64,000 nt of DNA, from positions 1 through 64,000 of the forward strand of contig MBPM02000052.1 of the NCBI GenBank assembly GCA_001695595.3. Direction: 5' to 3'. Source of the stretch: Plasmopara viticola (lineage: Eukaryota > Oomycota > Peronosporomycetes > Peronosporales > Peronosporaceae). The notes under the pieces are model-generated. The model was given only the letters and a program-made list of their open reading frames with translations, was not told the origin of the DNA and did no database searches. The position numbers were made by a program, and so were the translations under genes. Shown one piece after another: positions 3,269-62,550 of this stretch. Position 1 is the stretch's first letter. Every line of letters starts with the position of its first letter.

Positions 3269-3498
3269 CCCACCAATGCCTTTTAAATTATTAGGTAAGA
3301 ACTACAGTTTTTTTACGAGGGAAGTGTGAGCCCGACCGAAACGAACTAGAAGGCGAAATAGAGATCGTTGCTGATCGGATGCACAAGTAGAGTGTCGGAA
3401 CATGATTGCGGCAGAGAGGACCGTTAAAATACAAAGTCATAGGCTTGAGGACATTAAAGATTGATGCTGTATGTAACGATGTTCCTGTTGTGGAAGAA

Positions 3499-6400
3499 GC
3501 CCGTCTAGCTCAGTCGGTAGAGCGCAAGACTCTTAATCTTGTGGTCGTGGGTTCGAGCCCCACGGTGGGCGCCCACCAATGCCTTTTAAATTATTCGGTA
3601 AGAACTACAGTTTTTTTACGAGGGAAGTGTGAGCCCGACCGAAACGAACTAGAAGGCGAAATAGAGATCGTTGCTGATCGGATGCACAAGTAGAGTGTCG
3701 GAACATGATTGCGGCAGAGAGGACCGTTAAAATACAAAGTCATAGGCTTGAGGACATTAAAGATTGATGCTGTATGTAACGATGTTCCTGTTGTGGAAGA
3801 AGCCCGTCTAGCTCAGTCGGTAGAGCGCAAGACTCTTAATCTTGTGGTCGTGGGTTCGAGCCCCACGGTGGGCGCCCACCAATGCCTTTTAAATTATTCG
3901 GTAAGAACTACAGTTTTTTTACGAGGGAAGTGTGAGCCCGACCGAAACGAACTAGAAGGCGAAATAGAGATCGTTGCTGATCGGATGCACAAGTAGAGTG
4001 TCGGAACATGATTGCGGCAGAGAGGACCGTTAAAATACAAAGTCATAGGCTTGAGGACATTAAAGATTGATGCTGTATGTAACGATGTTCCTGTTGTGGA
4101 AGAAGCCCGTCTAGCTCAGTCGGTAGAGCGCAAGACTCTTAATCTTGTGGTCGTGGGTTCGAGCCCCACGGTGGGCGCCCACCAATGCCTTTTAAATTAT
4201 TCGGTAAGAACTACAGTTTTTTTACGAGGGAAGTGTGAGCCCGACCGAAACGAACTAGAAGGCGAAATAGAGATCGTTGCTGATCGGATGCACAAGTAGA
4301 GTGTCGGAACATGATTGCGGCAGAGAGGACCGTTAAAATACAAAGTCATAGGCTTGAGGACATTAAAGATTGATGCTGTATGTAACGATGTTCCTGTTGT
4401 GGAAGAAGCCCGTCTAGCTCAGTCGGTAGAGCGCAAGACTCTTAATCTTGTGGTCGTGGGTTCGAGCCCCACGGTGGGCGCCCACCAATGCCTTTTAAAT
4501 TATTCGGTAAGAACTACAGTTTTTTTACGAGGGAAGTGTGAGCCCGACCGAAACGAACTAGAAGGCGAAATAGAGATCGTTGCTGATCGGATGCACAAGT
4601 AGAGTGTCGGAACATGATTGCGGCAGAGAGGACCGTTAAAATACAAAGTCATAGGCTTGAGGACATTAAAGATTGATGCTGTATGTAACGATGTTCCTGT
4701 TGTGGAAGAAGCCCGTCTAGCTCAGTCGGTAGAGCGCAAGACTCTTAATCTTGTGGTCGTGGGTTCGAGCCCCACGGTGGGCGCCCACCAATGCCTTTTA
4801 AATTATTCGGTAAGAACTACAGTTTTTTTACGAGGGAAGTGTGAGCCCGACCGAAACGAACTAGAAGGCGAAATAGAGATCGTTGCTGATCGGATGCACA
4901 AGTAGAGTGTCGGAACATGATTGCGGCAGAGAGGACCGTTAAAATACAAAGTCATAGGCTTGAGGACATTAAAGATTGATGCTGTATGTAACGATGTTCC
5001 TGTTGTGGAAGAAGCCCGTCTAGCTCAGTCGGTAGAGCGCAAGACTCTTAATCTTGTGGTCGTGGGTTCGAGCCCCACGGTGGGCGCCCACCAATGCCTT
5101 TTAAATTATTCGGTAAGAACTACAGTTTTTTTACGAGGGAAGTGTGAGCCCGACCGAAACGAACTAGAAGGCGAAATAGAGATCGTTGCTGATCGGATGC
5201 ACAAGTAGAGTGTCGGAACATGATTGCGGCAGAGAGGACCGTTAAAATACAAAGTCATAGGCTTGAGGACATTAAAGATTGATGCTGTATGTAACGATGT
5301 TCCTGTTGTGGAAGAAGCCCGTCTAGCTCAGTCGGTAGAGCGCAAGACTCTTAATCTTGTGGTCGTGGGTTCGAGCCCCACGGTGGGCGCCCACCAATGC
5401 CTTTTAAATTATTCGGTAAGAACTACAGTTTTTTTACGAGGGAAGTGTGAGCCCGACCGAAACGAACTAGAAGGCGAAATAGAGATCGTTGCTGATCGGA
5501 TGCACAAGTAGAGTGTCGGAACATGATTGCGGCAGAGAGGACCGTTAAAATACAAAGTCATAGGCTTGAGGACATTAAAGATTGATGCTGTATGTAACGA
5601 TGTTCCTGTTGTGGAAGAAGCCCGTCTAGCTCAGTCGGTAGAGCGCAAGACTCTTAATCTTGTGGTCGTGGGTTCGAGCCCCACGGTGGGCGCCCACCAA
5701 TGCCTTTTAAATTATTCGGTAAGAACTACAGTTTTTTTACGAGGGAAGTGTGAGCCCGACCGAAACGAACTAGAAGGCGAAATAGAGATCGTTGCTGATC
5801 GGATGCACAAGTAGAGTGTCGGAACATGATTGCGGCAGAGAGGACCGTTAAAATACAAAGTCATAGGCTTGAGGACATTAAAGATTGATGCTGTATGTAA
5901 CGATGTTCCTGTTGTGGAAGAAGCCCGTCTAGCTCAGTCGGTAGAGCGCAAGACTCTTAATCTTGTGGTCGTGGGTTCGAGCCCCACGGTGGGCGCCCAC
6001 CAATGCCTTTTAAATTATTAGGTAAGAACTACAGTTTTTTTACGAGGGAAGTGTGAGCCCGACCGAAACGAACTAGAAGGCGAAATAGAGATCGTTGCTG
6101 ATCGGATGCACAAGTAGAGTGTCGGAACATGATTGCGGCAGAGAGGACCGTTAAAATACAAAGTCATAGGCTTGAGGACATTAAAGATTGATGCTGTATG
6201 TAACGATGTTCCTGTTGTGGAAGAAGCCCGTCTAGCTCAGTCGGTAGAGCGCAAGACTCTTAATCTTGTGGTCGTGGGTTCGAGCCCCACGGTGGGCGCC
6301 CACCAATGCCTTTTAAATTATTCGGTAAGAACTACAGTTTTTTTACGAGGGAAGTGTGAGCCCGACCGAAACGAACTAGAAGGCGAAATAGAGATCGTTG

Positions 6401-34756: not shown

Positions 34757-34986
34757 CCCACAAATGCCTTTTAAATTATTAGGTAAGAACTACAGTTTTT
34801 TTTTACGAGGGAAGTGTTATTCCGACCAAAAACACTACAGGCGAAATAGAGATCGTTGCTGATCGGATGCACAAGTAGAGTGTCGGAACATGATTGCGGC
34901 AGAGAAGACCGTTAAAATAAAAAGACATAGGCTTGAGGACATTAAAGATTGATGCTGTATGTAACGATGTTCCTGTTGTGGAAGAA

Positions 34987-35002
34987 GCCCGTCTAGCTCA
35001 GT
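34987..35002 (+). pseudogene. tRNA-Lys 5' stub (nt 1-16) left of the LINE; left target duplication 34986-35002
   Basis: The gene stops after tRNA position 16, where LINE sequence starts with TGAAGGT. The 17 bp AGCCCGTCTAGCTCAGT (34986-35002) recur on the far side at 40726-40742. The stub keeps only part of the A box and has no B box. Confidence 0.93.
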
Positions 35003-36027
35003 TGAAGGTCGTCTATATTATGTAATATAGGCGAATGTCTACCCAACTTGCCTGGCGTAGTATCTGTTCTACTACTATTGTGTACTATATATAATTATGC
35101 ATTTCCTCCAAAATAGGAATATACAAAAAATTATGTAATTTCCTCAAAAAAAGGAAATTACATATTTTATGTTTGCCACGTATTGTTTTGGATTTCATCC
35201 AATCACTGGCCTGGGAGGGTTTCGGTTCTACACTTTTGCCCCCGTTTCGACTTCAAGTTCGGGCGAAAAAGGCCATTTAGCCCCTTTGTGCGTGGCAACG
35301 TTGCTCGATAAGTGCGGTCGATCAACAGCCGCAACTTTTGGCACTTATGCAGCACATACAGCGCCCATTGCATGCCAAATGCTCACGCGATTTAAGCCTT
35401 CAGGTGCTTAAACGGAAGTCCGGTCTTTCAGCACACTGTCGCGTCGTTTCGCGATGGGGGAATCCGCAGCCCAATCCGTGGGCCGACCCATTTTTGGGAT
35501 CGTTATACTTTATACGATAAAAATCCCTCGCTTCTTATTCGTCGTGAGGAGTGAAAAAATTCTTGATTCTCCAGGCCTCACAGTTAAGATAAAAAAAAGT
35601 GACCGGTATGGCCCCACAGGTAAATTGGCCTTTTAGGCCTCTTCGGGTCACCAAAACCACTGGGATTCAGCTCTCAGACTTCATCAAGGTACCCTTGGCC
35701 CCCCAGGGTTCACAGATGACAAAGCTCTTGACTTACGAAGCCGCTTTCTCACTGCTTTGTTACAGGCGCCCCCTACTCCGGTCTTTTACGCGGCTGGCTC
35801 GTATCCAGTTACCCTCCAGGTGCACTGTATGGCTACATCAAGTGCGAGACTTGCGGTAGCGGACCCCAGAAAATTCGGACGTTCTTCAAGTGATGAGGCT
35901 TTACCCGTAAGGGCGCCCGGCAGGCTGCCCGACCAGATAGCACCCACATCTTCAGACGGCGGTTTTTTAAACGATTGGAATGAACTCAGTATTTGCCGAC
36001 ATTAACCGTGTTCTTTTCTAGACGTTA
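35003..36027 (-). other. LINE 3' untranslated region (~1 kb)
   Basis: Lies between the RT stop and the left target duplication. It contains no conserved frame. Short plus-strand open frames here look accidental. The last 170 bases (35003-35170) are AT-rich and hold hairpins. The segment from about 35200 to 36000 is of mixed composition and I do not recognise it. The terminal 14 bases align with the SINE 3' ends with one gap, so the far end is probably the part read by the reverse transcriptase. Confidence 0.7.
35133..35163 (-). repeat. Perfect 12-bp inverted repeat in the LINE 3' UTR
   Basis: ATGTAATTTCCT (35133-35144) and its exact complement (35152-35163) flank a 7-base A-rich loop. The transcript could form a 12-bp hairpin about 130 nt from the LINE 3' end. 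A related imperfect pair (ATTTCCT / AGGAAT) lies just outside at 35101-35120. A role in template recognition is possible but unproven. Confidence 0.6.
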
Positions 36028-39000
36028 TTATTTGTTCATGTGCGCACAGGTCTTGATGGTGCTGCCTTGCAGGTTATGGGTGATGCCCGGGTGCTGACAA
36101 GTGAAGCTGTGAAACACGGAATGGGTCTTCAGCGAGTCAATCACTTGTTTAAGATCTTGTCTCAGCTGCCGGTCGTACAGGTGTCGCTGGAAAAAGCGAA
36201 TGTGCGCACAGAAAGTCGACAATATGACTGAGAGTGCTGGAGCTACCGGTATCGGTTGCCGTCCGTCGAACAAGCATCGATTGCGGTTCGTCCAGATCGT
36301 GTGAAGTACCACAGCTCGAAGCAAAAGCCATACATCTCGTACCGCACCAGAACATTGAACCCAGTCGTCGCGTACGTGCACCTTGTTCGCGAGAGCAATA
36401 TCAAGCCACGACGGTCGAGAGACAAAGAATGGTGAGACAAGCTGCAAGATCTGACACCAGAGCCTTGACGCCAGCGTGCAGTCGAAAAATAAATGCTTCT
36501 CAGTCTCTATCGCTTTGCATCCTGCGCGCACGCATTTACGGATGCCTGGATGTGACGTCTCCAAGAACCAGAAGCGCGATCGCACGGGTAGCAAGCGAAA
36601 CGCAAGACGAAATTGCAAGTATTCGAAGACCGGAAGCAGGATGTGGCGCAGCCGCTTTCGATACTCCGCGAATGCTTTAATCTGTTGGTCGTCAACACGC
36701 TCTGAGTAAATTTTCATCGGGTGCGGCTTTTTTGGAGGGTCAGGCGCCCAGACAATTTTCAGGATCGCTGACCGTGGAATCTTCGGGATCAAGAATATCT
36801 TCGCTTTATTTCTGTAGCCAACTCGTGGAAGCAGACATCCGTGTGCGTCTATGCTTGACGAGTCCCGTACAAGTTGTCGTGCTCCAAGGCGGTCAACAAT
36901 TTGCGTCACTTCCCTGTACAGCGAGCGCAGCCACTTCATCTGTGTGTACGGTCGCACTGAGACAAGCGTGTAGTCGATATGTCGCTGTACGAAGGTGGTT
37001 CCATCTGGCCACGCTGCACCTTCACACCTGAAGTCAGCGAGTGACCGTAATTTGAAGCTACATGAGATATGGAGACGAAAGCTTCGTTGTGGTTCGGCGA
37101 CCATACCTAGACAACGTCGATGCACCACCACCGTATCGGACCGTGTTCGCTTCTCATAGTGAAGATCAGCATCAGCATGGAACCAAATTGGCTGATGTAG
37201 GCCATACATGGCGCGTTCGTGCAAACTCAAGTCATGCCACGTGACATTCCATCGTGTCTTGTACCAGCACACCCACGTCTCTCTCCACCACATTGCAGTT
37301 CGGCCAAGTGAGATAAGCTTGCCGTGACGAAGCGGTGAGATTGTAAGAAAGTCGAGTGCGTGGCATCCGCCATAGCAAGGTAATCCAGACGTCAGCAGCT
37401 CAATGCTCGCCGCCGTCCAGTTCTGCTCATCATCACCAATTACAGCTCCGATAAACTGCAATAACAGCGCAAGACGTTGCTTTTTGAGCTGGGCATCGAG
37501 ACGTGGAATACCAAGACCACCGTGGGTGCGCTTGTGATAAAGAAATTCGCTCGGGATGAGCATCACGTGCTTTTCGTCACGATCATGCTTACGACTCAGA
37601 ACAAACCGGTTAAGCATCGATTGCCAACGCCGCACAATGACCCGAGATATATTCGCGTGCTGAGTGTAGTGCCACAAACGCGATAGCACCATCGTCTGTG
37701 CAACGAGCAGTCTACCTCGAAGTGTGCGGGCACGCCTGTACCATGATTTTATGCTCTCAAAGAAGCGAGCGTCCAAAAAATTGGTAATCATGTCGTTGAC
37801 TGACGCCTGACCGAACGGGATGCCTAAGTATTTTGTGGTGTCGGAACGTCCAAGATCTTGGACCCCGGGAAGTGCAGGACACACCATGCTACGATTTAGG
37901 GCCAGCAGTACCGACTTGGACAAATTAAGTCTTGCTCCAGAGCCAGCACAGTACACGTCTACAATTGCAAGCTGAGCCCGAACGTGATCAATTGACCCGG
38001 CGAGCAACGTCGAGTCATCCGCGAAAAACATACTTGTCACCGTACAATTCGCATTCAGACATATCCCGTATTCGTCATGTTTGCGAAGTAAATTTCCAAG
38101 AGGCTCAATTGTAAGCACAAATAGGAGTGCCGACAAGGGGTCTCCTTGCTTCACGCCTCGAGTAGGGTGCAAAGCTGGCTGGATATTACCATTGATGAGC
38201 AGGTGTGCCTTCGGTTTGGTGTACAAGAGCTGAATCCATGAAATAAAAACTGGTCCGAAGCCCATGCAAGCCAGCAGCCGAAACATATACGACCAATTCA
38301 CACGGTCGAATGCCTTTTGAAAGTCCAGGAAAAGTGCGTAGGCCTCTTCGTCTCGATTTGTCACAAGGTCTTGCAGATCGGCAAGAAAGCGTACATGATG
38401 ATGAATTGATCGGGTCTTGACGAAGCCTTTTTGGTCTGGATGGATCAGGTCCAGCATTACTTTTTGTAATCGATATGTCAGTGCTTTTGACAACACCTTC
38501 ACGTCGACTGGCACGAGTGCAATTGGACGATAATTGCCAGGCTCAGCGCGTGAACCTTTCTTATGTAGCAGTACGAGCGCTGATTTACGCTGAGACGCTA
38601 GAAGCTCGCCGCGCCTCAGTCTATCCTTGAAAACAATCGCGAGGCACTCGCCAAATACTGATGATGCCACCTGATAAAATCCAGCCGTTAAACCGTCCAT
38701 GCTTGGAGAGGATGTCGCTCTCATATGCCGGATTGCAGTTGCAAGGTCAGCAGTGGTCAGGTCGGCTTCCAAAGCTGTGCAGCTCGTGACTGGGACGACT
38801 CTCGAAATTGAGTCAAGAAGTATGCGTTGCTGCGCGACATTTGACTCAGAGGCCGATTCGATTGGACTCTTGACATCACCCATCTCAGATCCCCAGTGCT
38901 CCAAGAAACGCAGAGAGATTTCTTGAGGATTCGTTGAGACATTTCCACTTGGTGTTATAACCTCCTCAATCGAAACGCGTCGCAAACTTGTGTCTAGAGG

Positions 39001-39387
39001 ACGAAAAAAATGAGATGTTGAGCGTTCCGAGTTGTTGACTTGAAAGTCAAAAGAAGCATCATGATTGTGTTGGCGGGTTCTCGTGACTATATCCTTATAG
39101 CTTCGTAAAGCATCGTCAAAAAAGTCTCGATTCTCTTTGCCTGACAATGCACGGTATCGGGCGGCTGCTTGATCTAATGCGACGCGAGCATCTTCGATCT
39201 CCCGCGTGTCTTGTTGCCTGAGCTTTTTCTGGACGTCTTGAAGCTGAGTCTTGATGCTTTTTTTCCAATTTTCCCAAATTTTTCCGGGGTTTTCTGAATG
39301 GCGAAGCTGGTCCAGGACCTGCTCGGCCTCCCTTTCAATTGCTGATAAACCTTCGGATATTCGAGGAGGTATCGCGGAAATTTCCAA
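36028..39387 (-). CDS. LINE reverse transcriptase ORF with C-terminal zinc finger (1119 aa)
   Basis: RNA-directed DNA polymerase for target-primed reverse transcription. The N-terminal ~110 residues are charged and probably helical, linking to the endonuclease. RT motifs appear in order: SSPSMDGLTAGFY (~226-238), the HKKGS...NYRPIAL block (~275-291), LDFQKAFD with the first catalytic Asp (~355), GVKQGDPLS (~411-419), and FADD with the catalytic Asp pair (~457-458). A thumb-like region follows. Near the C-terminus lies a CX4CX7HX4C finger (~952-970) of the kind that follows RT in many LINEs. The catalytic residues are intact. The annotated Met (39387) is the first in this frame but is unlikely to be the native start: the natural protein probably reads in from the endonuclease ORF, which overlaps out of frame by 214 nt. 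I see no RNase H domain. It resembles oomycete LINE polyproteins from memory. Confidence 0.93.
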   Translation of the reverse strand: MEISAIPPRISEGLSAIEREAEQVLDQLRHSENPGKIWENWKKSIKTQLQDVQKKLRQQDTREIEDARVALDQAAARYRALSGKENRDFFDDALRSYKDIVTRTRQHNHDASFDFQVNNSERSTSHFFRPLDTSLRRVSIEEVITPSGNVSTNPQEISLRFLEHWGSEMGDVKSPIESASESNVAQQRILLDSISRVVPVTSCTALEADLTTADLATAIRHMRATSSPSMDGLTAGFYQVASSVFGECLAIVFKDRLRRGELLASQRKSALVLLHKKGSRAEPGNYRPIALVPVDVKVLSKALTYRLQKVMLDLIHPDQKGFVKTRSIHHHVRFLADLQDLVTNRDEEAYALFLDFQKAFDRVNWSYMFRLLACMGFGPVFISWIQLLYTKPKAHLLINGNIQPALHPTRGVKQGDPLSALLFVLTIEPLGNLLRKHDEYGICLNANCTVTSMFFADDSTLLAGSIDHVRAQLAIVDVYCAGSGARLNLSKSVLLALNRSMVCPALPGVQDLGRSDTTKYLGIPFGQASVNDMITNFLDARFFESIKSWYRRARTLRGRLLVAQTMVLSRLWHYTQHANISRVIVRRWQSMLNRFVLSRKHDRDEKHVMLIPSEFLYHKRTHGGLGIPRLDAQLKKQRLALLLQFIGAVIGDDEQNWTAASIELLTSGLPCYGGCHALDFLTISPLRHGKLISLGRTAMWWRETWVCWYKTRWNVTWHDLSLHERAMYGLHQPIWFHADADLHYEKRTRSDTVVVHRRCLGMVAEPQRSFRLHISCSFKLRSLADFRCEGAAWPDGTTFVQRHIDYTLVSVRPYTQMKWLRSLYREVTQIVDRLGARQLVRDSSSIDAHGCLLPRVGYRNKAKIFLIPKIPRSAILKIVWAPDPPKKPHPMKIYSERVDDQQIKAFAEYRKRLRHILLPVFEYLQFRLAFRLLPVRSRFWFLETSHPGIRKCVRAGCKAIETEKHLFFDCTLASRLWCQILQLVSPFFVSRPSWLDIALANKVHVRDDWVQCSGAVRDVWLLLRAVVLHTIWTNRNRCLFDGRQPIPVAPALSVILSTFCAHIRFFQRHLYDRQLRQDLKQVIDSLKTHSVFHSFTCQHPGITHNLQGSTIKTCAHMNK

Positions 39388-40241
39388 TAACCACGACCAT
39401 GTAGCTGCGTACCACTTCGAAGGGAAACGCTATGAGCAAGATGATCGCCAGCATGCATTGGCAGGAAATATTCGGCATTTTCGTAGAAGCGGTCGCAGAA
39501 TTGCTCCGAAATCAGAATGTAGTCCAATCGATTTTTTCGAGGAAGAGGACCAGTAAACACTCGCTTAGAGTCATGGTGGGTACGCCACGCATCAACTACA
39601 CCTAGTTTGGCAATCCACTCAAGACAAGAAGAGCGGCTCTGGTCGTAGTGCAAGTCAGGTTTCGAGCAATCGAGTTGAGGGTCAAGTGGCGTATTTAAAT
39701 CTCCGAGTACGAAGTGCGTTGCATCATTTTCAAACCCATCTGTTGGAAGGTTTAGAAAGAACGATTGCTTTTCGTGTCTATCGACAAGCGCGTACACATT
39801 GTGAATGTAGACGGGAGCACGTTGAACCGTTACCTTTACAACAAGATACCTTCCCGGCACAGTCAGGTGTACCATTTCTGCAGCCGTTTCGATACCAGGA
39901 AAATCAGAACGTAGCAGTGTCAGTACTCCACTACTGCGACCGCGCGTGGGTCGATCGAGCCGCGTGTTACTGTCATTGACGAAGAGTTTGTGGGCAAAAT
40001 TTGAGCAGAGGTGAAACTTGAACGTATTAAGATGCTGCGCGTCAGCAAACTTGGTTTCTTGGACGCATGTTAGCGAGTGCTTGGCTAAAAGATTGTCAAT
40101 GAAGAGGTGACCATTTCGCTTGATGCCGTTTGTGTTCACGGTCATAAGCGAGAGAGCGTTCCAGGCGTGTTGTTCTTTCAACCCAACTTTAGCAGCGACT
40201 GGAAACAGCTCCAGCCACAGTCGTAGCCAAGGAGCCAGCAT
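39174..40241 (-). CDS. LINE APE-type endonuclease ORF (355 aa; C-terminal part frameshifted)
   Basis: Apurinic-endonuclease-like nuclease that would nick the target DNA. Expected motifs are all present in order: TVNTNG (~34-39), VQETK (~60-64), HNVYA (~147-151), GDLN (~180-183), DAWRTHH (~217-223), RLDYILIS (~238-245) and GDHLAHS (~265-271). Metal- and phosphate-binding residues therefore look intact. After GYWKFPRYLLEYP (~284-296) the frame loses sense, while the overlapping RT frame picks up a typical linker (SAIEREAEQVL). I infer one indel near 39350-39360 that split a continuous endonuclease-RT protein. A programmed frameshift is less likely because I see no slippery heptamer with a downstream structure. 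The Met at 40241 overlaps the end of the upstream ORF by 53 nt. Confidence 0.9.
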   Translation of the reverse strand: MLAPWLRLWLELFPVAAKVGLKEQHAWNALSLMTVNTNGIKRNGHLFIDNLLAKHSLTCVQETKFADAQHLNTFKFHLCSNFAHKLFVNDSNTRLDRPTRGRSSGVLTLLRSDFPGIETAAEMVHLTVPGRYLVVKVTVQRAPVYIHNVYALVDRHEKQSFFLNLPTDGFENDATHFVLGDLNTPLDPQLDCSKPDLHYDQSRSSCLEWIAKLGVVDAWRTHHDSKRVFTGPLPRKNRLDYILISEQFCDRFYENAEYFLPMHAGDHLAHSVSLRSGTQLHGRGYWKFPRYLLEYPKVYQQLKGRPSRSWTSFAIQKTPEKFGKIGKKASRLSFKTSRKSSGNKTRGRSKMLASH

Positions 40242-40725
40242 TTAATTGAATCTTTAACACCGATGAGTCGTCCGGATAGTAGCCTTCAAGCTGGCGGAGC
40301 ACTTCGAGATCGTCTAGAAGGTGACCTTGCCATTGTACAGCACGCCACTGCTCCATACAAAGCTCTCCAACCTTAGAACGCAGCAGCCGTAGCAGTGTGT
40401 TGGGATGCAAAAAGCGCATGTGGTGTGCTGGGATCCATTCGACTGGCTGGCCTGTAAAGTATTGAATCCAGTGGTCATTTGTAAAGAGTGTCGGAGCAAT
40501 GGACATGAGCGCAAGCTCAAATATACCGAGTGCCTTCGACGCACGCGCAAGCTCCGTAATCGTGTCAGAGTGGGTCCACCACTTGGCACATGCCTTGAAG
40601 ATGTCATGGCGGTTGGATGGTAGTGGCATATTCATGACACGTTTCCACTTTGTAACAAAAGTTGTGTCTTCTGTCGGGTACGTAGCTGATAATACGCGAT
40701 TGATTGCATGCAGTTGCGCAATTTC
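40189..40725 (-). CDS. LINE upstream ORF, 5'-partial (ORF1-like, function unknown)
   Basis: The frame is open from the 5' edge of the element (40725) to a stop at 40189, giving 178 codons. The first internal Met is at 40635 (148 aa from there). Because the frame is open up to the target duplication, the true start was probably lost by 5' truncation during insertion. The residues are rich in Trp and Leu (KWWTHSD, DHWIQYF) and look like a real folded protein. I see no CCHC knuckle, RRM or coiled coil. Its place before the endonuclease fits the C-terminal part of an ORF1 protein; it might instead be a fragment of another LINE polyprotein. It ends out of frame with, and overlapping, the endonuclease ORF. 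Confidence 0.6.
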   Translation of the reverse strand, partial: EIAQLHAINRVLSATYPTEDTTFVTKWKRVMNMPLPSNRHDIFKACAKWWTHSDTITELARASKALGIFELALMSIAPTLFTNDHWIQYFTGQPVEWIPAHHMRFLHPNTLLRLLRSKVGELCMEQWRAVQWQGHLLDDLEVLRQLEGYYPDDSSVLKIQLNAGSLATTVAGAVSSRC

Positions 40726-40742
40726 AGCCCGTCTAGCTCAGT
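40726..40742 (+). repeat. Right target-site duplication of the LINE
   Basis: AGCCCGTCTAGCTCAGT, identical to 34986-35002. It starts one base before the tRNA and covers tRNA positions 1-16, so the tRNA at 40727 is rebuilt in full against the LINE 5' end. Confidence 0.93.
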
Positions 40743-41029
40743 CGGTAGAGCGCAAGACTCTTAATCTTGTGGTCGTGGGTTCGAGCCCCACGGTGGGCGC
40801 CCACAAATGCCTTTTAAATTATTAGGTAAGAACTACAGTTTTTTTACGAGGGAAGTGTGAGCCCGACCGAAACGAACTAGAAGGCGAAATAGAGATCGTT
40901 GCTGATCGGATGCACAAGTAGAGTGTCGGAACATGATTGCGGCAGAGAGGACTGTTAGAATAAAAAGGCATAGGCTTGCGGACATTAAAGATTGTTTCTG
41001 TTTGTAAAGATGTTCCTGTTGTGGAAGAA

Positions 41030-44287: not shown

Positions 44288-44359
44288 GCCCGTCTAGCTC
44301 AGTCGGTAGAGCGCAAAATCTTAATCTTGTGGTCGTGGGTTCGAGCCCCACGGTGGGCG
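44288..44359 (+). pseudogene. tRNA-Lys with 1-nt deletion in the anticodon arm (72 nt)
   Basis: The segment reads CAAAATCTTAATCTTG, one base short of canonical, so the stem and a 7-base loop cannot both form normally. Confidence 0.75.
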
Positions 44360-46091
44360 CCCACAATGCCTTTTAAATTATTAGGTAAGAACTATAGTTT
44401 TTTCCCGAGGGAAGTGTGAGCCCGACCGAAAAAAAAAGAAGGCGAAATAGAGATCGTTGCTGATCGGATGCACAAGTAGAGTGTCGGAACATGATTGCGG
44501 CAGAGAGGACCGTTAAAATAAAAAGTCATAGGCTTGAGGACATTAAAGATTGATGCTGTATGTAACGATGTTCCTGTTGTGGAAGAAGCCCGTCTAGCTC
44601 AGTCGGTAGAGCGCAAGACTCTTAATCTTGTGGTCGTGGGTTCGAGCCCCACGGTGGGCGCCCACCAATGCCTTTTAAATTATTAGGTAAGAACTACAGT
44701 TTTTTACGAGGGAAGTGTGAGCCCGACCGAAAAAACTACAGACGAAATAGAGATCGTTGCTGATCGGATGCACAAGTAGAGTGTCGGAACATGATTGCGG
44801 CAGAGAGGACCGTTAAAATTCAAAGTCATAGGCTTGAGGACATTAAAGATTGATGCTGTATGTAACGATGTTCCTGTTGTGGAAGAAGCCCGTCTAGCTC
44901 AGTCGGTAGAGCGCAAGACTCTTAATCTTGTGGTCGTGGGTTCGAGCCCCACGGTGGGCGCCCACCAATGCCTTTTAAATTATTAGGTAAGAACTATATT
45001 TTTTACGAGGGAAGTGTGAGCCCGACCGAAACGAACTAGAAGGCGAAATAGAGATCGTTGCTGATCGGATGCACAAGTAGAGTGTCGGAACATGATTGCG
45101 GCAGAGAGGACCGTTAAAATACAAAGTCATAGGCTTGAGGACATTAAAGATTGATGCTGTATGTATCGATGTTCCTGTTGTGGAAGAAGCCCGTCTAGCT
45201 CAGTCGGTAGAGCGCAAGACTCTTAATCTTGTGGTCGTGGGTTCGAGCCCCACGGTGGGCGCCCACCAATGCCTTTTAAATTATTAGGTAAGAACTACAG
45301 TTTTTTACGAGGGAAGTGTGAGCCCGACCGAAAAAACAAGAAGGCGAAATAGAGATCGTTGCTGATCGGATGCACAAGTAGAGTGTCGGAACATGATTGC
45401 GGCAGAGAGGACCGTTAAAATAAAAAGACATAGGCTTGAGGACATTAAAGATTGATGCTGTATGTAACGATGTTCCTGTTGTGAAAGAAGCCCGTCTAGC
45501 TCAGTCGGTAGAGCGCAAGACTCTTAATCTTGTGGTCGTGGGTTCGAGCCCCACGGTGGGCGCCCACCAATGCCTTTTAAATTATTCGGTAAGAACTACA
45601 GTTTTTTTACGAGGGAAGTGTGAGCCCGACCGAAACGAACTAGAAGGCGAAATAGAGATCGTTGCTGATCGGATGCACAAGTAGAGTGTCGGAACATGAT
45701 TGCGGCAGAGAGGACCGTTAAAATACAAAGTCATAGGCTTGAGGACATTAAAGATTGATGCTGTATGTAACGATGTTCCGTTGAAGAAGCCCGTCTAGCT
45801 CAGTCGGTAGAGCGCAAGACTCTTAATCTTGTGGTCGTGGGTTCGAGCCCCACGGTGGGCGCCCACCAATGCCTTTTAAATTATTCGGTAAGAACTATAG
45901 TTTTTTTACGAGGGAAGTGTGAACCCGACCGAAACGAACTAGAAGGCGAAATAGAGATCGTTGATGATCGGATGCACAAGTAGAGTGTCGGAACATAATT
46001 GTGGCGGAGAGGACCGTTAAAATACAAAGTCATAGACTTGAGGATATTAAAGATTGATGCTGTATGTAACGATGTTCCTATTGTGGAAGAA

Positions 46092-50376: not shown

Positions 50377-50932
50377 CCCACCAATGCCTTTTAAATTATT
50401 AAATAAGAACAACAGTTTTTTACGAGGGAAGTGTTATCCCGACCAAAAACACTACAGGCGAAATAGAGATCGTTGCTGATCGGATGCACAAGTAGAGTGT
50501 CAGAACATGATTGCGGCAGAGAGGACCGTTAAAATAAAAAGTCATAGGCTTGAGGACATTAAAGATTTTTTCTGTATGTAACGATGTTCCTGTTGTGGAA
50601 GAAGCCCGTCTAGCTCAGTCGGTAGAGCGCAAGACTCTTAATCTTGTGGTCGTGGGTTCGAGCCCCACGGTGGGCGCCCACCAATGCCTTTTAAATTATT
50701 AGGTAAGAACTACAGATTTTTTACGAGGGAAGTGTGAACCCGACCGAAACGAACTAGAAGGCAAAATAAAGATCGTTGCTGATCGTTGCAGATCGGATGC
50801 ACAAGTAGAGTGTCGGAACATGATTGCTACAGAGAGGACCGTTAAAATACAAAGTCATAGGCTTGAGGACATTAAAGATTGATCCTGCCTGTAACGATGT
50901 TCCTGTTGTGAAAGAAGCCCGTCTAGCTCAGT

Positions 50933-51192
50933 TGAAGGTAGTTATGTATTTAACCTTAACACAACCTATACCTTCTCGGCTTGGCTAGAATTTCTACATT
51001 TACATTTTTAGTCTGAAGGTTCTTTTTCATCTTGTTATCGTCCTTTTCTTGATCGGGGTCAGAAATATTTTGCTTGGGGCCGTCCACTCCCCAAGTCTGG
51101 TTGATTACGAAGTTTGTCCGATGTGGGGCTCGAACCCGCAACACACACCGTGAGGACTAGAAGCATAATCCACTAACCCACGCCACCGGGTC
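50933..51192 (-). mobile_element. tRNA-derived SINE, copy 1 (260 bp)
   Basis: On the minus strand it starts TGACCCGG and has a tRNA-like head of about 80 nt, with an A-box-like TGGCGTGGGTTAGTGG (51185-51170) and a perfect B box GGTTCGAGCC (51136-51127). The body of about 180 nt contains the stem CTTGGGG/CCCCAAG and ends ACTACCTTCA with no poly(A). The parent tRNA is unclear because the anticodon arm is decayed. The left stub holds tRNA nt 1-16 (50917-50932). The target duplication copies are 50916-50932 and 51193-51209. It shares private bases with copy 5 (for example GGCTAGAATT and GAGGACTAG on the plus strand), so the two are duplicates. Confidence 0.9.
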
Positions 51193-51193
51193 A

Positions 51194-51266
51194 GCCCGTC
51201 TAGCTCAGTCGGTAGAGCGCAAGACTCTTAATCTTGTGGTCGTGGGTTCAAGCCCCACGGTGGGCG
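51194..51266 (+). tRNA. tRNA-Lys variant: G57A, rebuilt beside SINE copy 1
   Basis: A57 is still a purine and the B box still fits GGTTCRA, so this copy may remain functional. Its native 5' flank is replaced by the SINE 5' end. Confidence 0.85.
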
Positions 51267-52161: not shown

Positions 52162-52404
52162 CCCACCAATGCCTTTTAAATTATTAGGTAAGAACTACAG
52201 TTTTTTACGAGGGAAGTGTTAGCTCGACCGAAAAAACTACAGGCGAAATGGAGATCGTTGCTGATTGGATGCACAAGTAGAGTGTCGGAACATGATTGCG
52301 GCAGAGAGGACCGTTAAAATACAAAGTCATAGGCTTGAGGACATTAAAAATTGATCCTGCATGTAACGATGTTCCTGTTGTGGAAGAAGCCCGTCTAGCT
52401 CAGT

Positions 52405-52664
52405 TGAAGGTTGTTATGTATTTAACCTTAACACAACCTATACCTTCTCGGCTTGGCTAGGATTTCTAATTTTACATTTTTAGTCTGAAGGTTCTTTTTC
52501 ATCTTGTTTTCGTCGTTTTCTTGATCGGGGTCAGAAATATTTCGCTTGGGGCCGTCCTCTCCCCAAGTCTGGTCGATTACGAAGTTTGTCCGATGTGGGG
52601 CTCGAATCCGCAACACACACCGTGAGGACCAGAAGGATAATCCACTAACCCACGCCACCGGGTC
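52405..52664 (-). mobile_element. tRNA-derived SINE, copy 2 (260 bp)
   Basis: Target duplication copies at 52388-52404 and 52665-52681; tRNA stub at 52389-52404. Shares private variants with copy 7 (TTTCTAATTTTAC and CTTGTTTTCG on the plus strand). The 3' end reads ACAACCTTCA. The rebuilt canonical tRNA starts at 52666. Confidence 0.9.
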
Positions 52665-52993
52665 AGCCCGTCTAGCTCAGTCGGTAGAGCGCAAGACTCT
52701 TAATCTTGTGGTCGTGGGTTCGAGCCCCACGGTGGGCGCCCACCAATGCCTTTAAAATTATTAGGTAAGAACTACAGTTTTTTACGAGGGAAGTGTGAAC
52801 CCGACCGAAACGAACTAGAAGGCATAATAAAGATCGTTGCTGATCGTTGCAGATCGGATGCACAAGTAGAGTGTCGGAACATGATTGCTACAGAGAGGAC
52901 CGTTAAAATACAAAGTCATAGGCTTGAGGACATTAAAGATTGATCCTGCCTGTAACGATGTTCCTGTTGTGAAAGAAGCCCGTCTAGCTCAGT

Positions 52994-53253
52994 TGAAGGT
53001 AGTTATGTATTTAACCTTAACACAACCTATACCTTCTCGGCTTGGCTAGGATTTCTACATTTACATTTTTAGTCTAAAGGTTCTTTTTCATCTTGTTATC
53101 GTCGTTTTCTTGATCGGGGTCAGAAATATTTCGCTTGGGGCCGTCCACTCCCCAAGTCTGGTGTATTACGAAGTTTGTCCGATGTGGGGCTCGAACCCGC
53201 AACACACACCGTGAGGACCAGAAGCATAATCCACTAACCCACGCCACCGGGTC
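52994..53253 (-). mobile_element. tRNA-derived SINE, copy 3 (260 bp)
   Basis: Target duplication copies at 52977-52993 and 53254-53270. Nearly identical to copy 4 in the next unit, which suggests a tandem duplication of a SINE-bearing unit. Intact A and B boxes. The rebuilt tRNA starts at 53255. Confidence 0.9.
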
Positions 53254-53573
53254 AGCCCGTCTAGCTCAGTCGGTAGAGCGCAAGACTCTTAATCTTGTGG
53301 TCGTGGGTTCGAGCCCCACGGTGGGCGCCCACCAATGCCTTTTAAATTATTAGGTAAGAACTACAGTTTTTTTACGAGGGAAGTGTGAACCCGACCGAAA
53401 CGAACTAGAAGACCAAATAGAGATCGTTGCAGATCGGATGCACAAGTAGAGTGTCGGAACATGATTGCTACAGAGAGGACCGTTAAAATACAAAGTCATA
53501 GGCTTGAGGACATTAAAGATTGATCCTGCCTGTAACGATGTTCCTGTTGTGAAAGAAGCCCGTCTAGCTCAGT

Positions 53574-53833
53574 TGAAGGTAGTTATGTATTTAACCTTAA
53601 CACAACCTATACCTTCTCGGCTTGGCTAGGATTTCTACATTTACATTTTTAGTCTAAAGGTTCTTTTTCATCTTGTTATCGTCGTTTTCTTGATCGGGGT
53701 CAGAAATATTTCGCTTGGGGCCGTCCACTCCCCAAGTCTGGTTGATTACGAAGTTTGTCCGATGTGGGGCTCGAACCCGCAACACACACCGTGAGGACCA
53801 GAAGCATAATCCACTAACCCACGCCACCGGGTC
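53574..53833 (-). mobile_element. tRNA-derived SINE, copy 4 (260 bp)
   Basis: Target duplication copies at 53557-53573 and 53834-53850. Duplicate of copy 3. The rebuilt tRNA starts at 53835. Confidence 0.9.
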
Positions 53834-54136
53834 AGCCCGTCTAGCTCAGTCGGTAGAGCGCAAGACTCTTAATCTTGTGGTCGTGGGTTCGAGCCCCACG
53901 GTGGGCGCCCACCAATGCCTTTTAAATTATTAGGTAAGAACTACAGTTTTTTTACGAGGGAAGTGTGAACCCGACCAAAACGAACTAGAAGACCAAATAG
54001 AGATCGTTGCTGATCGGATGCACAAGTAGAGTGTCGGAACATGATTGCGGCAGAGAGGACCGTTAAAATAAAAGTCATTGGCTTGAGGACATTAAAGACT
54101 GTTTCTGTATGTAACGATGTTCCTGTTGTGGAAGAA

Positions 54137-56009: not shown

Positions 56010-56567
56010 CCCACCAATGCCTTTTAAATTATTAGGTAAGAACTATAGTTTTTCCCGAGGAAAGTGTGAGCCCGACCGAAACAAACATGAAGGCGAAATA
56101 GAGATCGTTGCTGATCGGATGCACAAGTAGAGTGTCAGAACATGATTGCGGCAGAGAGGACCGTTAAAATAAAAAGTCATAGGCTTGAGGACATTAAAGA
56201 TTTTTTCTGTATGTAACGATGTTCCTGTTGTGGAAGAAGCCCGTCTAGCTCAGTCGGTAGAGCGCAAGACTCTTAATCTTGTGGTCGTGGGTTCGAGCCC
56301 CACGGTGGGCGCCCACCAATGCCTTTTAAATTATTAGGTAAGAACTACAGTTTTTTTACGAGGGAAGTGTGAACCCGACCGAAACGAACTAGAAGGCAAA
56401 ATAAAGATCGTTGCTGATCGTTGCAGATCGGATGCACAAGTAGAGTGTCGGAACATGATTGCTACAGAGAGGACCGTTAAAATACAAAGTCATAGGCTTG
56501 AGGACATTAAAGATTGATCCTGCCTGTAACGATGTTCCTGTTGTAAAAGAAGCCCGTCTAGCTCAGT

Positions 56568-56827
56568 TGAAGGTTGTTATGTATTTAACGTTAACACAAC
56601 CTATACCTTCTCGGCTTGGCTAGAATTTCTACATTTACATTTTTAGTCTGAAGGTTCTTTTTCATCTTGTTATCGTCCTTTTCTTGATCGGGGTCAGAAA
56701 TATTTTGCTTGGGGCCGTCCACTCCCCAAGTCTGGTTGATTACGAAGTTTGTCCGATGTGGGGCTCGAACCCGCAACACACACCGTGAGGACTAGAAGCA
56801 TAATCCACTAACCCACGCCACCGGGTC
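56568..56827 (-). mobile_element. tRNA-derived SINE, copy 5 (260 bp)
   Basis: Target duplication copies at 56551-56567 and 56828-56844. Part of a duplicated block with copy 1 at a constant offset of 5635 bp, including flanking tRNAs. It differs from copy 1 near the 3' end (GGTTGT rather than GGTAGT, and AACGTTAAC rather than AACCTTAAC on the plus strand). Confidence 0.9.
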
Positions 56828-56828
56828 A

Positions 56829-56901
56829 GCCCGTCTAGCTCAGTCGGTAGAGCGCAAGACTCTTAATCTTGTGGTCGTGGGTTCAAGCCCCACGGTGGGC
56901 G
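56829..56901 (+). tRNA. tRNA-Lys variant: G57A, rebuilt beside SINE copy 5
   Basis: Same single change as its duplicate at 51194, so the change predates the block duplication. Confidence 0.85.
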
Positions 56902-59900: not shown

Positions 59901-60146
59901 CCCACCAATGCCTTTTATTTTATTAGGTAAGAACTACAGTTTTTTTACGAGGGAAGTGTGAATCCGACCGAAACGAACTAGAAGGCGAAATAGAGATCGT
60001 TGCTGATCGGATGCACAAGTAGAGTGTCGGAACATGATTGCGGCAGAGAGGACCGTTAAGTTGAAAGGTCATAGGCTTGAGGACGTTAAAGATTGATGCT
60101 GTATGTAACGATGTTCCTGTTGTGGAAGAAGCCCGTCTAGCTCAGT

Positions 60147-60398
60147 CGAAAGTTGTCATGTATTTAATCTTAACACAACCTATACCTTCTCGGCTTGGCT
60201 AGGATTCCTACATTTACATTTTTAGTCTGAAGATTCTTTTTCGTCTTGTTATTGTCTTATTCTTGATCGGGGTCGGAAATATTTCGCTTGGGGCCGTCCT
60301 CTCCCCAAGTCTGGTTGATTACGAAGTTTGTCCGATGAGGGGCTCGATACACACCGTGAGGACCAGAAGCATAATCCACTAACCCACGCCACCGGGTC
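60147..60398 (-). mobile_element. tRNA-derived SINE, copy 6 (252 bp, B box lost)
   Basis: Target duplication copies at 60130-60146 and 60399-60415 (one mismatch); the tRNA stub is 60131-60146. The junction reads CAGTCGAAAG, so the duplication could extend to 19 bp. A deletion of about 9 bp in the head leaves GGCTCGATAC on the plus strand, destroying the B box. It is the most diverged copy, with changes throughout the body. Confidence 0.88.
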
Positions 60399-60399
60399 A

Positions 60400-60472
60400 G
60401 CCCGTCTTGCTCAGTCGGTAGAGCGCAAGACTCTTAATCTTGTGGTCGTGGGTTCGAGCCCCACGGTGGGCG
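60400..60472 (+). tRNA. tRNA-Lys variant: A9T, rebuilt beside SINE copy 6
   Basis: One change at the start of the D-arm/A box. The anticodon and T-arm are canonical. The variant base lies inside the target duplication and is absent from the left copy. Confidence 0.75.
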
Positions 60473-60690: not shown

Positions 60691-60763
60691 GCCCCTCTAG
60701 CTCAGTCGGTAGAGCGCAAGACTCATAATCTTGTGGTCGTGGGTTCGAGCCCCACGGTGGGCG
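60691..60763 (+). pseudogene. tRNA-Lys body with CAT anticodon: G5C, T35A
   Basis: The anticodon loop reads CTCATAA, so the anticodon is CAT (Met codon ATG) on a lysine tRNA body. G5C opens acceptor pair 5-68. U33 and the B box are intact. Most likely a decaying copy; if transcribed and charged with lysine it could misread AUG. Confidence 0.7.
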
Positions 60764-61296
60764 CCCACCAAAACCTTTTAAATTATTAGGTAAGAACTAC
60801 AGTTTTTTTACAAGGGAAGTGTGGACCCGACCGAAACGAACTAGAAAGGGGAAATAGAGATCGTTGCTGATTGGATGCACAAGTAGAGTGTCGGAAAATA
60901 ATTGCGGCAGAGAGACCGTTAAAATACAAAGTCATAGGCTTGAGGACATTAAAGATTATTTCTGTATGTATCGATGTTCCTGTTGTGGAAGAAGCCCGTC
61001 TAGCTCAGTCGGTAGAGCGCAAGACTCTTAATCTTGTGGTCGTGGGTTCGAGCCCCACGGTGGGCGCCCACCAATGCCTTTTAAATTATTCGGTAAGAAC
61101 TATATTTTTTTTACGAGGGAAGTGTGAACCCGACCGAAACGAACTAGAAGGCGAAATAGAGATCGTTGCTGATCGGATGCACAAGTAGATTGTCGGAACA
61201 TAATTGCGGCAGAGAGGACCGTTAAAATGCAAAGTCATAGGCTTGAGGACATTAACGACTGATCCTGCATGAAACGATGTTCCTGTTGTGGAAGAA

Positions 61297-61671: not shown

Positions 61672-62216
61672 CCCACCAATGCCTTTTAAATTATTAGGTA
61701 AGAACAACAGTTTTTCCCGAGGGAAGTGTGAGCCCGACCGAAACAAACATGAAGGCGAAATAGAGATCGTTGCTGATCGGATGCACAAGTAGAGTGTCAG
61801 AACATGATTGCGGCAGAGAGGACCGTTAAAATAAAAAGTCATAGGCTTGAGGACATTAAAGATTGTTTCTGTATGTAACGATGTTCCTGTTGTGGAAGAA
61901 GCCCGTCTAGCTCAGTCGGTAGAGCGCAAGACTCTTAATCTTGTGGTCGTGGGTTCGAGCCCCACGGTGGGCGCCCACCAATGCCTTTTAAATTATTAGG
62001 TAAGAACTACAGTTTTTTACGAGGGAAGTGTTAGCCCGACCGAAAAAACTACAGGCGAAATGGAGATCGTTGCTGATTGGATGCACAAGTAGAGTGTCGG
62101 AACATGATTGCGGCAGAGAGGACCGTTAAAATACAAAGTCATAGGCTTGAGGACATTAAAAATTGATCCTGCATGTAACGATGTTCCTGTTGTGGAAGAA
62201 GCCCGTCTAGCTCAGT

Positions 62217-62476
62217 CGAAGGTTGTTATGTATTTAACCTTAACACAACCTATACCTTCTCGGCTTGGCTAGGATTTCTAATTTTACATTTTTAGTCTGA
62301 AGGTTCTTTTTCATCTTGTTTTCGTCGTTTTCTTGATCGGGGTCAGAAATATTTCGATTGGGGCCGTCCACTCCCCAAGTCTGGTTGATTACGAAGTTTG
62401 TCCGATGTGGGGCTCGAACCCGCAACACACACCGTGAGGACCAGAAGCATAATCCACTAACCCACGCCACCGGGTC
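62217..62476 (-). mobile_element. tRNA-derived SINE, copy 7 (260 bp)
   Basis: Target duplication copies at 62200-62216 and 62477-62493; the stub is 62201-62216. Sister of copy 2, with the same private variants in body and flanking unit. The junction is CAGTCGAAGG where copies 1-5 and the LINE have CAGTTGAAGG, so the duplication here could be up to 19 bp. A and B boxes intact. Confidence 0.9.
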
Positions 62477-62477
62477 A

Positions 62478-62550
62478 GCCCGTCTAGCTCAGTCGGTAGA
62501 GCGCAAGACTCTTGATCTTGTGGTCGTGGATTCGAGCCTCACGGTGGGCG
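62478..62550 (+). tRNA. tRNA-Lys variant: A37G, G53A, C62T, rebuilt beside SINE copy 7
   Basis: The anticodon is still CTT, but the base after it is G. The T-stem has one wobble and one mismatch. The trailer differs (GCGCTAACC), so the palindrome is lost. Confidence 0.7.

Follow-up and report, generated by a model that had tools for sequence, protein, structure and literature searches.

Non-long terminal repeat (non-LTR) retrotransposons specific for transfer RNA (tRNA) genes have been described before, and elements confined to a single tRNA isotype are already a published kind. NeSL-1_TV is reported to be specific for tRNA-Pro genes, LIN15_SM for tRNA-Arg genes and LIN25_SM for tRNA-Glu genes (PMC4640811). 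The dictyostelid elements NLTR-A, TRE5 and TRE3 are L1-type long interspersed nuclear elements (LINEs) associated with tRNA genes; NLTR-A inserts 2-6 bp ahead of the mature tRNA and encodes an RNase H downstream of its reverse transcriptase (RT). Five lineages of Dada, which moves by a DDE transposase, insert at tRNA nt 8-13 (PMC8869645), and Dada families with TAGCTC targets are described from P. marinus (PMC3706591). The stretch analyzed here, positions 1 to 64,000 of contig MBPM02000052.1 of the oomycete Plasmopara viticola (64 kb, hereafter the window), is filled almost entirely by a tandem array of tRNA-Lys(CTT) genes (184 by ARAGORN, in units of about 303 bp), with one unit interrupted by a 5,723-bp LINE and seven by a short interspersed nuclear element (SINE; 260 bp, one copy 252 bp). 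Every one of these insertions falls after tRNA nt 16, within the A box and directly behind ...TAGCTCAGT, lies antisense to the tRNA gene and closes with a second copy of the preceding 17-mer, AGCCCGTCTAGCTCAGT. Our analysis indicates that these insertions very probably represent a site-specific, L1-like LINE family of the oomycete with an apurinic/apyrimidinic (AP) endonuclease, accompanied by a tRNA-headed SINE that may share its machinery.

Like NeSL-1_TV, LIN15_SM and LIN25_SM, the present elements are non-LTR retrotransposons specific for tRNA genes. Those three are relatives of the NeSL clade, which is counted among the clades with a restriction-like endonuclease, and are listed with one isotype each (PMC4640811). 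The Pl. viticola family has instead an AP-type endonuclease, targets in several isotypes that have CTCAGT in common, a putative SINE partner and a gene-rebuilding duplication. Its AP endonuclease lies upstream of the RT, and no further Pfam domain (E up to 0.001) is found in the RT open reading frame (ORF), which places it outside the NeSL, R2 and Utopia groups. The dictyostelid elements occupy variable positions over a range outside the gene, whereas the present LINE is fixed after nt 16, inside the gene at 39 of 39 junctions; the elements come to lie about 1 bp upstream of the rebuilt gene, to which the NLTR-A position might be analogous, and Pfam finds no counterpart of the NLTR-A RNase H here. 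Dada likewise targets the A box of tRNA genes but has a DDE transposase, duplications of 6-7 bp (nt 1-7 being unduplicated) and no reverse transcription; duplications of 16-18 bp with an RT and an AP endonuclease separate the present family from it. Utopia, which is common in oomycetes and targets U2 small nuclear RNA genes, is also a site-specific LINE of a multicopy small-RNA gene; it belongs to the restriction-like endonuclease group, and disrupted U2 genes are reported for it, unlike the rebuilt tRNA genes here. Dewa, Mutsu and Keno of zebrafish, which similarly are target-specific LINEs of small-RNA-gene repeats, belong to the Tx1 clade. The target of Dewa is the tRNA-Leu spacer, not the gene (PMC3706591). 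Insertion within the tRNA A box itself was regarded as unusual when the window was read from sequence alone; published precedents exist for LINEs specific for tRNA genes and, in Dada, for use of tRNA nt 8-13. What look new, within the literature searched, are the A-box address shared by several isotypes, the AP-type, L1-like machinery, the SINE partner and the gene-sparing duplication; no description of the present system was found in searches of the open PubMed Central literature (Repbase and most subscription papers being beyond reach).

In the window, AGCCCGTCTAGCTCAGT has 194 matches with at most two mismatches, where shuffled sequence gives an expectation of 0, yet this recurrence alone is little evidence because the window is itself a tRNA-Lys(CTT) array. 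The decisive evidence is the junction between element and tRNA, which recurs genome-wide in other tRNA families. The window's own assembly (92,937,831 bases, 358 contigs) was searched with the first kilobase of the LINE, corresponding to the 3' end of its RNA; 40 of 98 candidates were scored and gave 40 matches and a weak internal 41st, with the 3' end present in 39 of the 40. The 3'-terminal 16-mer of the LINE occurs at 38 genomic places (reversed control, 0), and a 22-mer comprising CTCAGT followed by this 16-mer occurs at the same 38, i.e. every exact LINE 3' end stands directly after CTCAGT. Outside the window 38 junctions were readable in fetched loci, all with the CTCAGT end; 34 of these copies are also 16-mer places, and 42 different places are covered in total. 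With the window copy included, the LINE 3' junction follows tRNA nt 16 at all 39 copies read. This genome-wide table bears out the target specificity that the sequence-only reading had claimed, and none of the 39 copies lies at a scattered non-tRNA site with an unrelated duplication.

We defined the target class of each LINE copy by the 16 bases before the element, i.e. the tRNA 5' half, pooling close variants of the Lys-TTT half, and assigned isotypes from array neighbors or right-hand tRNA remains (for Thr-TGT, from the anticodon in locus L049). By this definition, 33 of the 39 read copies lie in verified tRNA genes of seven classes, Lys-CTT, Lys-TTT, Thr (AGT/CGT), Thr-TGT, Met, Ile and Phe, and the other six in two further classes, GGTCGTATAG and CCGAGTGTAG, that resemble tRNA 5' halves. 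The target first proposed, tRNA-Lys, must consequently be widened to an A-box sequence common to many tRNA genes. The CTCAGT site is used by a LINE subfamily with 88-98% identity over the 3' kilobase and by a second with 77-79%, and the 38 copies outside the window make up 13 combinations of class and subfamily, 10 of them in verified classes. These 13 combinations indicate many independent insertions, and 13 is a lower bound on their number if array recombination copies an insertion only within its own tRNA class.

Some copies record other histories. At C113:13800-45400 (L019-L022), nine copies of one truncated LINE occupy a second tRNA-Lys(CTT) array and were evidently multiplied by array recombination. 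Copies of the second subfamily in L026, L029, L030 and L042 share an internal deletion from about 1043 to 4192 (window-LINE positions) that removes most of the RT; they occupy Lys-TTT, Thr and Ile genes and are apparently a non-autonomous derivative moved in trans.

The SINE uses the same base. Its 3' 20-mer occurs at 135 genomic places, 132 of them directly behind CTCAGTN, and copies were read in Lys-CTT genes in the window and in Lys-TTT, Thr-AGT, Thr-CGT, Thr-TGT and Phe genes elsewhere (40 of 204 candidates scored in the body search). The element is short and non-coding, and its head is folded like a tRNA by ARAGORN, at a lowered threshold, in 17 of 18 distinct copies, all features of a SINE, despite an Rfam scan of one window copy that gave no match at E up to 1. 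A third 3' terminus, first noticed after a SINE in L051, has 11 genomic occurrences, eight of them exactly after CTCAGT and three that deviate from the 25-mer by one, one and two mismatches; in L051 (1-60) it stands directly after the SINE's right-hand tRNA-Phe copy, an arrangement that either order of insertion could produce. The LINE and SINE bodies had been described as unrelated, and blastn indeed finds no significant similarity between them. The view that they are wholly unrelated was nonetheless amended, as most copies of both RNAs have a predicted hairpin stretch ending in ACNACYTTCA, about 10 nt in common. A shared 3' end is the usual sign of a SINE borrowing the proteins of a LINE, and the present SINE may do so via this common terminus.

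The target duplications reveal what becomes of the struck gene. For LINEs they measure 17 bp in the window, where the bases preceding the 17-mer differ on the two sides and so fix its length, and in eight of the nine C113 copies (the ninth is cut off), 16 bp in L029 (Thr) and 18 bp in L042 (Ile). Among SINEs, 21 of 23 rows, representing 19 different places, have duplications of 16-18 bp; the remaining two (14 and 7) seem to reflect base changes that arose afterwards. The common site, orientation and duplication noted for the seven window SINEs hold for every start and every site; the 17-bp duplication is exact in six, and at 60147 a right-hand base change reduces the exact shared run to 7 bp. 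The duplicated segment extends from about tRNA nt -1/+1 to nt 16. Because it holds nt 1-16 joined to the untouched remainder, a complete tRNA gene stands at the 5' side of the element: ARAGORN calls an entire tRNA to the right of all 10 SINEs whose flank is long enough (a further 10 are cut off by locus ends) and at all four LINE copies tested (window, L029, L042 and L022). Insertion thus passes through the A box and yet generally spares the gene, so that the early placement of the junction inside a tRNA gene was right as to the A box and incomplete as to the gene, which is kept, rebuilt by the duplication. The rebuilt gene may be functional. The window example scores in Rfam as highly as untouched units. 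In L026 and L030, near 5057, a SINE lies at the start of the LINE's right-hand tRNA copy, i.e. at the LINE 5' end, and rebuilt sites seem to be hit again.

The window LINE, which must be corrected to a broken copy, is 5'-truncated inside ORF1 and has its endonuclease and RT parts in different frames. At least one other copy, in L033, retains a 1,244-codon frame with both domains; several copies have an upstream ORF overlapping ORF2, and further truncated copies are present. Pfam identifies Exo_endo_phos and RVT_1 in ORF2. Among solved proteins the RT part matches human LINE-1 ORF2p best (8e-40) and R2 more weakly (from 5e-23), and the endonuclease part matches LINE-1 endonucleases (from 7e-5). 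In an alignment of 25 rows of relatives, columns E62, Y150, D181, N183, D240 and H267 of the endonuclease, which we take to be the expected catalytic residues, are invariant, and a C-terminal C-C-H-C motif is nearly so. The upstream ORF in L037 and L015 has no significant Pfam domain, with one sub-threshold chance match. By its RT, endonuclease, ORF arrangement, truncations and duplications, the family is an AP-endonuclease, L1-like non-LTR retrotransposon. Its protein relatives number 164 at E up to 0.001 among 8,000 candidates scored, and the nearest named ones among the 120 matches listed are oomycete: Globisporangium splendens, Peronospora, Phytophthora and one with a truncated name beginning 'Plasmo'. 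In an RT tree of 46 of 106 usable rows, rooted at the midpoint only and built without Tx1 or R1 references, the window element belongs to a supported group in which every named member is an oomycete; the named LINEs of plants and algae fall elsewhere in the tree. The window RT had no relative in one scan of IMG/VR.

These data are compatible with a mechanism of four steps. The LINE endonuclease would read the A box around CTCAGT and nick the tRNA-sense strand after T16, as the junctions suggest. The resulting ...CTCAGT-3'OH end would serve as primer for the reverse transcriptase, which would start copying LINE or SINE RNA at the 3'-terminal ACNACYTTCA, a step for which the junction itself is observed. 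The other strand would then be cut 16-18 bp upstream, at the tRNA 5' end, visible as the 16-18 bp duplications. Such an insertion leaves a 16-nt orphan fragment next to the 3' end of the element and, next to its 5' end, an entire tRNA gene that includes both internal promoter boxes, as is seen in the copies with readable right ends with one exception, and the element would occupy a multicopy gene without removing that gene. That the first nick falls behind T16 on the tRNA-sense strand is strongly implied because the ...CTCAGT-3'OH strand is continued directly by the complement of the RNA 3' end, and we infer that the endonuclease alone places it. The intact motif GCTCAGTN{0,2}GGTAGAGC has 2,657 matches in the genome (reversed control, 0), and targets are therefore plentiful. 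In Phytophthora infestans about eight thousand tRNA genes are described, many in tandem arrays (PMC9584435).

CTCAGT alone is expected about once per 4,096 bp, yet all 39 read LINE copies lie in tRNA or tRNA-like sequence; extra help could come from a longer recognition sequence, from factors of RNA polymerase III (Pol III) or from pairing with a read-through transcript. In the last case the 3' flank of a read-through RNA, antisense to the tRNA 5' half, would pair with the nicked target, and this pairing rather than the endonuclease would give most of the specificity. Other site-specific LINEs receive 3'-flank help of a similar kind, and the complement of CTCAGT follows the RNA 3' end of each read copy and would pair with any class; the first nick would still need placing, however, and we consider this explanation distinctly unlikely. 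Guidance by the Pol III machinery (TFIIIC/TFIIIB) deserves slightly more credit, while still being improbable. It is the mode proposed for Dictyostelium TRE5, whose ORF1 protein binds TFIIIB (PMC5911963), and the exact base would follow from protein geometry; the scarcity of the hexamer relative to the 33 verified and six tRNA-like targets fits it, as does a nick falling in box A. Against it, not one of the 38 LINE 3' ends falls in the 272 Ser/Leu-type A boxes that lack CTCAGT, two Ser genes in L029 that neighbor the Thr gene used there being equally free of them, and TRE insertions differ in lying at variable distances outside the gene. The presence of CTCAGT at every read LINE target, and of no LINE end at other A boxes, thus favors direct reading of the DNA. 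A pattern for other A boxes, TAGTNTAGTGGTT, was dropped as noisy (122 matches, 33 in the reversed control).

Two further explanations were considered. Unequal crossing-over and gene conversion in tRNA arrays could copy one ancestral insertion, and for part of the data they do: a single truncated LINE recurs in the nine C113 copies, and the window SINEs spread in one array. However, the targets differ in tRNA class, 5' half and spacer, two LINE subfamilies are involved and a sequence-unrelated SINE occupies the same base, and the 13 class-by-subfamily combinations reject a single insertion spread in one array as a general explanation, which makes this account extremely unlikely. The elements might alternatively insert loosely and survive selection at tRNA sites alone, where gene-sparing insertions would be best tolerated. 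This too is very unlikely, given that the same nucleotide is used at 38/38 LINE and 132/135 SINE places and that many repeats are tolerated elsewhere, 37.34% of the Pl. viticola assembly being reported as repeats (PMC6660063).

Several observations weigh against a site-specific LINE family with a SINE partner. LINE copies may be missed because 40 of 98 candidates were scored, and diverged LINE or SINE copies may exist elsewhere, with 40 of 204 SINE candidates scored. The tRNA identity of the GGTCGTATAG and CCGAGTGTAG classes, holding 6/39 read LINE copies, is a candidate assignment; the C309 copy (L023) lacks the LINE 3' terminus; 3/135 SINE places are without exact CTCAGT and not readable; and the link between LINE and SINE consists of the roughly 10 common terminal nucleotides only. 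All junctions come from one genome, and the LINE right junctions read are those of copies below full length, since full-length elements exceed the loci fetched. The exact match between the two sides in L026 and L030 extends over only 12 bp, with two mismatches beyond it. The 5'-truncated LINE of L011 (2560-2700) has its 3' junction in Lys-TTT and its 5' end in the inner part of a tRNA-Met, with neither a duplication nor a complete tRNA there; its tRNA-Met junction falls at the same A-box region, and it looks like an insertion bridging two target genes.

The family may further represent an old oomycete L1-type lineage for which the CTCAGT A box is a common address, with a 16-18 bp stagger tuned to the tRNA 5' end that spares the host, sites that are hit repeatedly, and an address shared by LINE subfamilies, deletion derivatives and the SINE; arguments for and against this broader scenario seem to us evenly balanced. 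The system shows, in a eukaryote, an AP-type LINE that targets tRNA genes of several isotypes at one exact base; its natural junctions, numbering dozens, can be used to derive the rule, and it allows two ideas of tRNA targeting, direct DNA reading and Pol III factors, to be separated testably. It illustrates how a gene can survive being struck when the target is duplicated, and points to the large oomycete tRNA arrays as a likely habitat of specialized mobile DNA. A sequence-reading LINE endonuclease and RT whose multicopy target stays complete is also relevant to studies of targeted integration.

The features of the window are collected in Table 1.

Table 1. The LINE, the seven SINE copies and their target duplications in the 64-kb window.
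Feature	Position	Strand	Remarks
Left 17-bp target duplication, AGCCCGTCTAGCTCAGT	34986..35002	+	tRNA-Lys nt -1 to 16; orphan 5' fragment at LINE 3' end; no tRNA called (ARAGORN)
LINE copy, 5'-truncated	35003..40725	-	antisense to tRNA gene; 3' end at 35003
LINE RNA 3' end	35003..35033	-	small predicted hairpin, then ACGACCTTCA; terminal 16-mer is the junction mark
ORF2, RT part	36028..39429	-	RVT_1, E 1e-33; C-terminal C-C-H-C motif
ORF2, AP-type endonuclease part	39174..40241	-	Exo_endo_phos, E 2e-9; frame differs from RT part
ORF1, C-terminal end	40189..40737	-	cut by 5' truncation; open frame enters target duplication; without Pfam domain
Right target duplication, AGCCCGTCTAGCTCAGT	40726..40742	+	nt -1 to 16 of rebuilt tRNA gene
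Complete tRNA-Lys(CTT) at LINE 5' end	40727..40801	+	Rfam 67.8 bits, equal to undisturbed units
SINE copy 1 (260 bp)	50933..51192	-	duplications 50916-50932, 51193-51209
SINE copy 2	52405..52664	-	duplications 52388-52404, 52665-52681
SINE copy 3	52994..53253	-	duplications 52977-52993, 53254-53270
SINE copy 4	53574..53833	-	duplications 53557-53573, 53834-53850
SINE copy 5	56568..56827	-	duplications 56551-56567, 56828-56844
SINE copy 6 (252 bp)	60147..60398	-	duplications 60130-60146, 60399-60415; right copy with one mismatch
SINE copy 7	62217..62476	-	duplications 62200-62216, 62477-62493

The LINE with its antisense orientation, its site after nt 16 and its flanking 17-mers stands as first reported. 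In the SINEs at 60147 and 62217, the first base after the duplication is C, not T, which equals C17 of the tRNA-Lys target and reflects either mutation or a trace of the priming start.

The LINE is also the border between a homogenized and a diverging half of the array. To its left (1-34986) the tRNA-Lys units are near-identical, with 20 distinct sequences among the 113 compared and a mean pairwise difference of 0.5%; to its right (40742-64000) all 18 compared are distinct and differ by 5.5% on average, both sides being filtered for an exact core and a spacing of 280-320 bp. Within the Lys array, a tRNA with anticodon CAT, called tRNA-Met, lies at 60691-60765, and a tRNA with a four-base anticodon call at 44288-44361.

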